40,185 bases of DNA from Bacillota bacterium. Its GTDB lineage: Bacteria > Bacillota > Negativicutes > Sporomusales > Sporomusaceae. Position 1 is the first letter of the stretch, and every line of letters starts with the position of its first letter. Position numbers and translations under genes: made by a program. A model generated the notes under the pieces. The model worked only from the letters and a program-made list of their open reading frames with translations. It ran no database searches and was not told the DNA's origin. Positions 37,567 through 40,185 of this stretch are shown here, piece by piece. The stretch lies in the NCBI GenBank assembly GCA_017889675.1, contig JAGGAA010000004.1, forward strand, positions 1 through 40,185, in the 5' to 3' direction.

Positions 37567-37595
37567 TTGACAACTGTTTCCAGGAATGGTATTCT
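37567..37595 (+). promoter_or_regulatory. sigma-A-type promoter for riboswitch 1 transcript
   Basis: TTGACA-N17-TATTCT. Confidence 0.75.
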
Positions 37596-37625
37596 AATTC
37601 CATAATAAAAAACTGAATAGTACGA

Positions 37626-37822
37626 GATAGGTGCCTTAAGGGCTTAATAGGGAAGTCCGGTTAAATGCCGGCGCGGTCCCGCCACTGTAACGGGGAGCAA
37701 GTTTAAAATATGCCACTGAGACGATAGTCTTGGGAAGGTTTAAGCAAGCAACGATCCGGAGTCAGGAGAACTGCCTAGCTGACAATCACCGTTTGTTACC
37801 CACGAGGTATGGGGAGGGGATT
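37626..37822 (+). ncRNA. cobalamin (B12) riboswitch 1
   Basis: 'gcttaatagggaa..ccggttaaa.gccggcgcggtcccgccactgtaacgg' and B12 box 'gtcaggagaactgcc', 'gacaatcaccg'. Confidence 0.96.
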
Positions 37823-37857: not shown

Positions 37858-37884
37858 GCTCCTGGCTAACCGCCAGGAGCTTTG
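37858..37884 (+). terminator. terminator hairpin A of riboswitch 1 platform
   Basis: GCTCCTGG-CTAACCG-CCAGGAGC-TTTG. Confidence 0.7.
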
Positions 37885-37903: not shown

Positions 37904-37940
37904 ACTCCTGACTATAAACGGTCAGGAGTTTTAATATTTA
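37904..37940 (+). terminator. terminator hairpin B of riboswitch 1 platform
   Basis: ACTCCTGAC-TATAAACG-GTCAGGAGT-TTTAATATTT. Confidence 0.7.
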
Positions 37941-38109: not shown

Positions 38110-39054
38110 ATGGATATTTCATTAGCATTATCAGATGTTTTGAAAATGTGGAAAACTGCATTACCGGCCATGTTTTTAGGCTGTTATTGTGGTGTTGTTC
38201 TTAAAAACCGACGTTTTTTTACTTGGTTCAGCAAAGTGTTGCGGCCGATGACTTCACTGGGTAAATTGCCGGAAGCTTTAGGCCCATTTTTTATTTTATG
38301 TTTACTGAACAGGTATGCGGCTAATGCTATGCTGGCTGAATTTGGCCGTAACGCTGTTGTAAATAAAAATGGCATCATTGCTGTTTATCTGATGGGTTCT
38401 CTGCCTACCGGCATCTATTTCACTATCTTTTATTTCAGTCCAGCTTTGATCGCCGGGTTGGGCTGGAAACTGGGTATGGCATTTATGGCGATAAACATTG
38501 GCATGAGTACTCTTGTAACAGTAATTGGCATCTTATGGAATCGCATTAACTTCCGGCAAGATGACGCCAGCCATTCGGAACATCAGCAGACATTTTCCAG
38601 TGCGACAGCCGATAAGATCGATCTGGTAGCTGCGGCTAGGACGGCCTTTTGGCAATTTTGGGATATAGCCGTAGTTTTTGTGCCGGTTACGTTTGTTTTC
38701 GCGTTGTTTATGCATACCGATATTATTAACGAGATTCTGCCAGGTGCTGCCCCTGTTTTACACAAGGTCAATTTGACTGCAGCCGGAGTTTTGGTTATTT
38801 TGGCTGGGATACCTACGATGATTGCGGCCATAGGTGTTGCCGGAACGCTGCTGCAAAGCGGCGCACTGGTGGCGGAGGAGATAATTTTTACACTTTTGGT
38901 GGCGTCTTTTTTTCATAATGTATATGATGCTGTATCCCGTGTATTACCGACAAATGTTTCGATATTTGGTGTCAAGTTGGGTGTTGTTGTTACTGTCGTG
39001 GGTACTGTCGTCTATCTTGCGATGGTGGCGCTGGCCGCCAGCCTCGCTTTGTAA
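38110..39054 (+). CDS. nucleoside recognition (Gate) domain-type integral membrane protein
   Basis: Hydrophobic 314 aa; repeated 'KMWKTALPAMFLGCYCGVVL' / 'AFWQFWDIAVVFVPVTFVFALF' segments and 'GIPTMIAAIGVAGTLL' typical of Gate-domain proteins; directly downstream of the riboswitch. Confidence 0.7.
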   Translation: MDISLALSDVLKMWKTALPAMFLGCYCGVVLKNRRFFTWFSKVLRPMTSLGKLPEALGPFFILCLLNRYAANAMLAEFGRNAVVNKNGIIAVYLMGSLPTGIYFTIFYFSPALIAGLGWKLGMAFMAINIGMSTLVTVIGILWNRINFRQDDASHSEHQQTFSSATADKIDLVAAARTAFWQFWDIAVVFVPVTFVFALFMHTDIINEILPGAAPVLHKVNLTAAGVLVILAGIPTMIAAIGVAGTLLQSGALVAEEIIFTLLVASFFHNVYDAVSRVLPTNVSIFGVKLGVVVTVVGTVVYLAMVALAASLAL

Positions 39055-39090: not shown

Positions 39091-39120
39091 TTGACGCTCT
39101 ATGTCGATCAATGATATGAT
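39091..39120 (+). promoter_or_regulatory. sigma-A-type promoter for riboswitch 2 transcript
   Basis: TTGACG-N18-TATGAT. Confidence 0.65.
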
Positions 39121-39170
39121 TGGTAAAAATATGGAATATTATATTTTCTAACAGACAACTGAATATATTG

Positions 39171-39367
39171 AGATAGGTGCCCATTAGGGCTTAATAGGGA
39201 AGACCGGTTAAAAGCCGGCGCGGTCCCGCCACTGTAACGGGGAGTAAGCTTAAGATATACCACTGGGACAACAGTCTTGGGAAGGTTTAAGCAAACCATG
39301 ATCCGGAGCCAGGAGAACTGCCTGTCTGACAATCACCGTTTTTCACCCACGCGGTATGGGGAGGGGA
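39171..39367 (+). ncRNA. cobalamin (B12) riboswitch 2
   Basis: Near-identical to riboswitch 1 through core and B12 box 'gccaggagaactgcc'. Confidence 0.96.
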
Positions 39368-39403
39368 TTACAGTTAAGTGCTATTACGTATTTTGCTGAA
39401 TTC

Positions 39404-39431
39404 ACTCCTGGTTTTAAACCAGGAGTTTTTC
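39404..39431 (+). terminator. terminator hairpin A of riboswitch 2 platform
   Basis: ACTCCTGG-TTTTAAA-CCAGGAGT-TTTT. Confidence 0.8.
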
Positions 39432-39449
39432 ATTTCACTTTACTGTTTC

Positions 39450-39484
39450 ACTCCCTGATTTTTACGGCAGGGAGTTTATTTTTT
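39450..39484 (+). terminator. terminator hairpin B of riboswitch 2 platform
   Basis: ACTCCCTG-ATTTTTACGG-CAGGGAGT-TTATTTTTT. Confidence 0.8.
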
Positions 39485-39627
39485 GCCACTTCTCTGTCAT
39501 GCTCATTTAAGTATGTCTTATTTGGCGTGGGGTATAAAACCTGGAGGATAATAATGGAGCACTAAAAAACTATATCTATTTTCGATCTTGAGGTAAAAAG
39601 ATAATTACAAGGATAGGGGAAATTTTG

Positions 39628-40185
39628 ATGAAAAAGAAAACTGCTATTGCATTGTGTGCTGTATTTAGTTTAAGTGTGGCTGGTACTGTATTGGCTGCTC
39701 CGGCGAATCTTTTTGCTGTAGTTCCGGAAAAACACTGGACCTACAGTGCTATCAGTCAGTTGGCGGATGCTGGTCTGGTCGAAGCCTTTGGCGGAGGAGT
39801 TTACAGAAAAGATGTCATCTTAACGCGCTGCGAAATGGCAGCTATTGTAGCCAAAGCCATGGTAAAATCAGCTAACGCTGATGTGGCAGCCCAAGCCACT
39901 ATTGAAAAACTTAAAGCTGAATTTGCTCCTGAATTTAACCTGAGTGAAACAAATAATGTTGCCAGCCGTTTAGACAAATTAGAGAAAAATGCGTCGCCGA
40001 TAAAAATCACCAATGGTGATGTCCGGATTCGTTACCAGAGTAACTGGGATCAAAAAGCTAAAAATACTGACAAAGACGCAGACACACGCATACAAGAGCG
40101 AGTGAGACTAAATATTGCGGCAGATATTACCGATAATCTAAAGTTCAATAGCCGTCTTGTGGCAACACATACCAGTAATAAGCGT
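39628..40185 (+). CDS. SLH-domain outer-membrane porin (OmpM-like), truncated by window end
   Basis: Not in ORF track (no stop in window). ATG 39628 translates 'MKKKTAIALCAVFSLSVAGTVLAAPANLFAVVPEKHWTYSAISQLADAGLVEAFGGGVYRKDVILTRCEMAAIVAKAM...'; paralogous in layout to the 29547 porin. Confidence 0.9.
   Translation, partial: MKKKTAIALCAVFSLSVAGTVLAAPANLFAVVPEKHWTYSAISQLADAGLVEAFGGGVYRKDVILTRCEMAAIVAKAMVKSANADVAAQATIEKLKAEFAPEFNLSETNNVASRLDKLEKNASPIKITNGDVRIRYQSNWDQKAKNTDKDADTRIQERVRLNIAADITDNLKFNSRLVATHTSNKR

Follow-up and report, generated by a model that had tools for sequence, protein, structure and literature searches.

An OmpM-family SLH porin encoded behind a cobalamin (B12) riboswitch in a Sporomusa genome is probably a B12-repressed gene product through which the substrate of a nickel-type ABC importer, most likely cobalt or a small cobalt chelate, crosses the outer membrane. 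The window, meaning the whole stretch of DNA analyzed, is a complete contig of 40,185 bases from a genome with an estimated completeness of 58%. The riboswitch, its promoter and terminators, the mutually exclusive pairings, the porin family, and the linkage of the porin to ABC genes in Sporomusa sp. KB1 were all identified at the level of sequence.

Riboswitch and expression platform

The aptamer (positions 39158 to 39339, + strand) matched RF00174 over the full model (1 to 189) with a cmscan score of 109.9 bits (E, 7.8e-27; gathering score, 31.5). A B12 riboswitch upstream of the porin, as proposed in an earlier note on this DNA, was therefore confirmed; the start given there (39171) was 13 bases late. 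A scan placed a sigma-A-type promoter, TTGACG-18 nt-TATGAT, at 39091 to 39120 (+ strand), with 10 of 12 matches and a TG before the -10 element; TTGACA-17-TATCAT was read by eye from the alignment at the corresponding place in KB1. Intrinsic terminator 1 (39404 to 39426, + strand) consists of a 10-bp stem and then TTTTTC (hairpin, -14.8 kcal/mol), and a second terminator-like hairpin (39450 to 39475, + strand; -12.4 kcal/mol) is followed by a T-rich tail, these two hairpins bearing out the terminator-like platform described earlier.

The B12-box strand GAGCCAGGAG (39306 to 39315, + strand), a putative antiterminator, is complementary to the 5' arm of terminator 1 and can pair with it. In an enforced alternative fold, 10 pairs formed between these segments and excluded the terminator (computed energies, -94.6 kcal/mol for the antiterminator versus -101.5 kcal/mol for the terminator). 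Of 223 riboswitches, 58 had a terminator complementary to the B12 box of the same element; as no shuffled control accompanied it, this count is given no weight here. The scan found no promoter-like site on the + strand between terminator 2 and the porin ATG.

Promoter, aptamer, antiterminator, and terminators are arranged as in an OFF switch that acts on transcription, and, judging from the riboswitch class, we infer cobamide binding and repression. At low cobamide levels, pairing of the B12-box strand with terminator 1 (5' arm) would allow readthrough into the porin gene and, as the gene order seen in KB1 suggests, into ABC genes. With ample cobamide, the B12-box strand would be held by the aptamer, the terminators would form, and expression would stop.

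The 60 bases from 39511 to 39570, which separate terminator 2 from the porin ribosome-binding site region, were 88% conserved with KB1 and include GGAGG and, after it, a tiny ORF (ATG GAG CAC TAA). A second cobalamin riboswitch, missed by the earlier note, lies 1.5 kb upstream of the porin riboswitch (37612 to 37792, + strand; cmscan, 112.9 bits versus a gathering score of 31.5), and scanning located its promoter (37567 to 37595) and its terminators (37858 to 37880 and 37904 to 37929). The ORF behind this sister element (38110 to 39054, + strand) encodes a 314-amino-acid membrane protein with only a subthreshold match to Pfam Gate (PF07670). This protein, which is conserved in KB1 and adjoins the riboswitch-porin unit there, has no clear family and is possibly another cobalt or corrinoid transporter.

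Assignment of the porin

The porin ORF (39628 to 40185, + strand) starts at an ATG at 39628, behind a ribosome-binding site region, AGGATAGGGG (39610 to 39619, + strand), that was located in the upstream alignment. The contig ends 558 bases into this ORF, leaving the first 186 amino acids; its description as the only gene downstream of the riboswitch was an artifact of the contig stopping inside it. The window porin was 89% identical in amino acid sequence to a complete 439-amino-acid porin of KB1. A profile of 13 related porins, the window protein included, matched Veillonella OmpM structure 8bys end to end (positions 1 to 432; E, 3e-79), the KB1 ortholog being complete and the window gene ending at 186 amino acids. 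The same profile matched the OmpM stalk structure 8bz2 (E, 2.2e-39), as expected of a protein with an N-terminal SLH domain; Pfam SLH alone scored 15.9 in the window fragment, below the cutoff of 20.8.

Because the 13-porin profile matched both 8bys at full length and the 8bz2 stalk, the window protein is assigned by homology to the OmpM family, with the complete barrel seen in its relatives only. The KB1 identity and the profile match thereby upheld the claim of an SLH porin beginning at 39628 on the same strand as the riboswitch. AlphaFold2 predictions on six porin sequences had a pLDDT of 34.7 and are not used as evidence. Neither the window protein nor the KB1 ortholog matched Plug or TonB_dep_Rec domains; since a Plug domain is lacking, the window porin is not TonB dependent and, by family, would be a passive, wall-tethered porin.

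Porin-associated ABC genes in Sporomusa

The gene order in KB1 is riboswitch, 319-amino-acid membrane protein, riboswitch, porin, and NikB-NikC-SBP-NikD-NikE, with a methyltransferase gene and then tandem riboswitches and a chelatase-like gene downstream of the ABC genes. The KB1 permeases passed NCBI curated nickel cutoffs (Opp2B, 399.6 against 350; Opp2C, 330.4 against 300), and the SBP (SBP_bac_5), encoded at L050:17658-19235, had its best match to Opp5A_nikA (328.6), below the curated NikA cutoff of 600. The genes behind the KB1 porin belong to the BPD_transp_1, OppC_N, and SBP_bac_5 families and not to BtuF, BtuC, or BtuD. BtuFCD, which had been suggested to lie further downstream, was therefore rejected as the partner of the porin in KB1, where an importer of the nickel/peptide class follows instead. 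Weak similarity to the nikB leader of other genomes (73 to 78% over 46 to 74 bases) was found between the KB1 porin and nikB. No orthologs of KB1 nikB or of the KB1 SBP were found elsewhere in the window's own genome (58% complete), and the contig ends inside the porin; for these reasons the operon was modeled on KB1, and the same genes would be expected past the contig end.

Between the window and KB1, the aptamer was 98.9% identical and the stretch just after it 98.4% identical, compared with 73 to 77% for the upstream flanks and 89% for the porin DNA. A scan of genome contigs with the KB1 porin returned five close copies only. RF00174 was not found in the stretches read at related porins of Sporomusa ovata, the KB1 second replicon, and MAG CTSoil_079. 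The riboswitch-free copies in the KB1 second replicon and S. ovata adjoin Opp-type ABC genes, and the porin is thus not bound to B12 control. The riboswitch-free orthologs could be aligned with the window DNA only from about the ribosome-binding site onward, which indicates that their promoter region was not kept here; persistence of the porin's own older promoter behind the riboswitch was rejected on this basis. ABC-adjacent porins form a specific subset, with 24 other OmpM loci having no such ABC gene within ~1.5 kb. That relatives of the window porin adjoin Nik/Opp ABC genes agrees with the earlier proposal of a role in uptake.

Riboswitch neighbors and the outer-membrane slot

Genes behind 224 riboswitches, among the matches listed for 24 Sporomusales genomes, were surveyed as a sample. 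An SLH porin was the first gene in 3 of these 224 (the window genome, KB1, and genome G009), against ~38 with TonB-dependent receptors, some of which were counted twice where riboswitches occur in tandem. The survey of porins behind B12 riboswitches that the earlier note had called for thus recovered the pairing repeatedly but at low frequency among the matches listed. The riboswitch-porin pairing is real and recurrent but uncommon, and it is not unique to the window genome, being present also in KB1 and, with a second porin lineage, in G009 and G012.

A BtuB-like receptor is encoded under a B12 riboswitch in the window's own genome (L013:184-2076). The suggestion that diderm Firmicutes use a porin instead of TonB/BtuB is supported neither by this receptor nor by the survey counts; the porin does not replace BtuB, and a system with a B12-regulated porin only and no TonB component was rejected. 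In KB1 (L050:5090-11849), a B12 riboswitch, a very large TonB receptor, and a 416-amino-acid unknown protein form a cluster that recurs in L079, L095, and other loci, joined by a papain-like peptidase in KB1, S. ovata, and G003. G009 has a barrel without an SLH domain behind a riboswitch and ahead of nitrogenase-like genes. Cobalamin riboswitches precede nitrogenase-like H-D-K genes in G009 (L059:3039-7627), G003, G010, and G015, and the G009 locus also contains a porin and FecBCD-type ABC genes.

Rfam was run on 20 nikB loci from across the Negativicutes (L182, L183, and L249-L274), and 19 of them had RF00174 just upstream of nikB, which makes this a class-wide B12-controlled nickel-type importer. 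MAG CTSoil_079 has riboswitch-nikB-nikC-SBP-nikD-nikE without an intervening porin (ABC genes 77 to 89% identical to those of KB1), and the G010 ABC genes (80 to 88% identical to those of KB1) directly follow a B12 riboswitch, also with no porin. RF00174 lies directly before nikB in G015 and just upstream of it in G059; in these genomes, from two other families, porins of the window type are found just after nikE (64% and 58%, respectively). The second SLH-porin lineage, 29% identical to the window porin over part of its length, is placed after a B12 riboswitch and before a NikA-like SBP in G009 and G012 (another family). TonB receptors stand between the riboswitch and Nik/Opp-type genes in S. 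ovata, KB1, and G003. Riboswitch-ABC operons thus come in three forms: with a porin in the outer-membrane slot, with a TonB receptor in it, or with the slot empty. We read this as the apparent placement of a porin into an older B12-controlled importer operon.

Tentatively, diderm Firmicutes may possess a B12-repressed, wall-tethered cobalt porin together with the class-wide nickel-type ABC importer, with lineages differing in whether a porin or a TonB receptor occupies the slot or it is left empty; this broader proposal is less secure than the reading of the window porin itself. If true, a scarce metal would have a way across the outer membrane that is independent of TonB and regulated by RNA. 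Work on cobalt uptake in Negativicutes has a clear target in the class-wide riboswitch-nikBC-SBP-DE operon.

Substrate and alternative explanations

Metal ions can pass general porins, so a dedicated porin may not be needed. Cobalt fits as the substrate because NikABCDE members behind B12 riboswitches are predicted to be cobalt specific (PMC2667541) and because porins may give cobalt passage through the outer membrane (PMC7689651). The cargo of the importer would serve corrinoid synthesis and most likely consists of cobalt or small cobalt chelates rather than intact corrinoids. Import by the porin and ABC genes of corrinoids or their fragments (cobinamide, cobamides) in place of cobalt is unlikely. 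B12 riboswitches do also control BtuB and BtuFCD-type genes, and S. ovata has a riboswitch that is followed by a TonB receptor and then by Nik-like ABC genes; however, the ABC genes here are of the nickel/peptide class and not BtuFCD, the window genome already has its riboswitch-controlled BtuB-like receptor, and porins pass molecules of ~600 Da (PMC10628300), a limit that corrinoids exceed. Of the two substrates named in the earlier proposal of a dedicated porin for corrinoid or cobalt uptake, corrinoids are thus disfavored by size and cobalt is the better guess.

The weak match of the KB1 SBP to the staphylopine receptor CntA, the match of NikC to CntC, and the methyltransferase gene after the KB1 ABC genes would be consistent with an importer for a peptide or a metallophore-metal complex (nickel, opine-like), with the porin passing the metallophore and B12 control reflecting metal cross talk. 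This explanation is about as improbable as corrinoid import, given that no metallophore-synthesis genes were recognized near the KB1 operon in the ORF lists and that cobalt is indicated by the class-wide placement of nikB under B12 control. Less probable still is a chance pairing produced by shuffling of riboswitches and genes, with no special role for the porin. The genus is rich in both elements (up to 38 riboswitch and up to 25 SLH-porin matches per genome), and the low count of SLH porins among the matches listed would be compatible with chance, but the riboswitch-porin-ABC arrangement occurs in two porin lineages, the ABC-adjacent porins are a specific subset of OmpM loci, and conservation is higher in the aptamer and leader than in the DNA around them. 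A B12-repressed porin serving a nickel-type importer of cobalt or a small cobalt chelate remains the preferred reading.

Comparison with known systems

In diderm Firmicutes, OmpM is considered to act as a general porin and as a wall tether. An OmpM copy that is controlled directly by RNA and has a metal importer as its partner would demonstrate specialization within the family. The Veillonella parvula OmpM structures (8bys, 8bym, and 8bz2) resemble the window family in having a signal peptide, an SLH domain, a helical stretch, and a barrel. OmpM1 is an abundant general porin (PMC10628300), whereas the window copy lies behind a B12 riboswitch and, unlike OmpM1, has relatives that adjoin a nickel-type ABC importer.

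The NikABCDE systems of Clostridium tetani and Desulfitobacterium hafniense (PMC2667541) likewise have an upstream cobalamin riboswitch and are predicted cobalt carriers. In contrast to these, the gene order here is B-C-A-D-E, the host is diderm, and an OmpM porin is added; other riboswitch-nik operons described here differ from them in carrying a TonB receptor. BtuB and the predicted cobalt TonB receptors (PMC7689651) are also outer-membrane components behind a cobalamin riboswitch, but the window porin has no Plug domain. No cobalt-specific outer-membrane receptor had been confirmed as of PMC7689651, which makes the riboswitch-borne porin and TonB receptors testable candidates. The S. ovata btuB2 riboswitch, studied with a Bacillus subtilis reporter, is of the same class and from the same genus, and according to the main text of PMC9600662, in which the word "porin" does not occur, it controls a TonB receptor.

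Neither a riboswitch-controlled OmpM nor the joint occurrence of these elements with a nickel-type importer was found in the literature searched, most subscription journals being outside its scope. Each part of the system is known from elsewhere, and only the way in which the cobalamin riboswitch, the OmpM porin, and the nickel-type importer are combined appears to be new.
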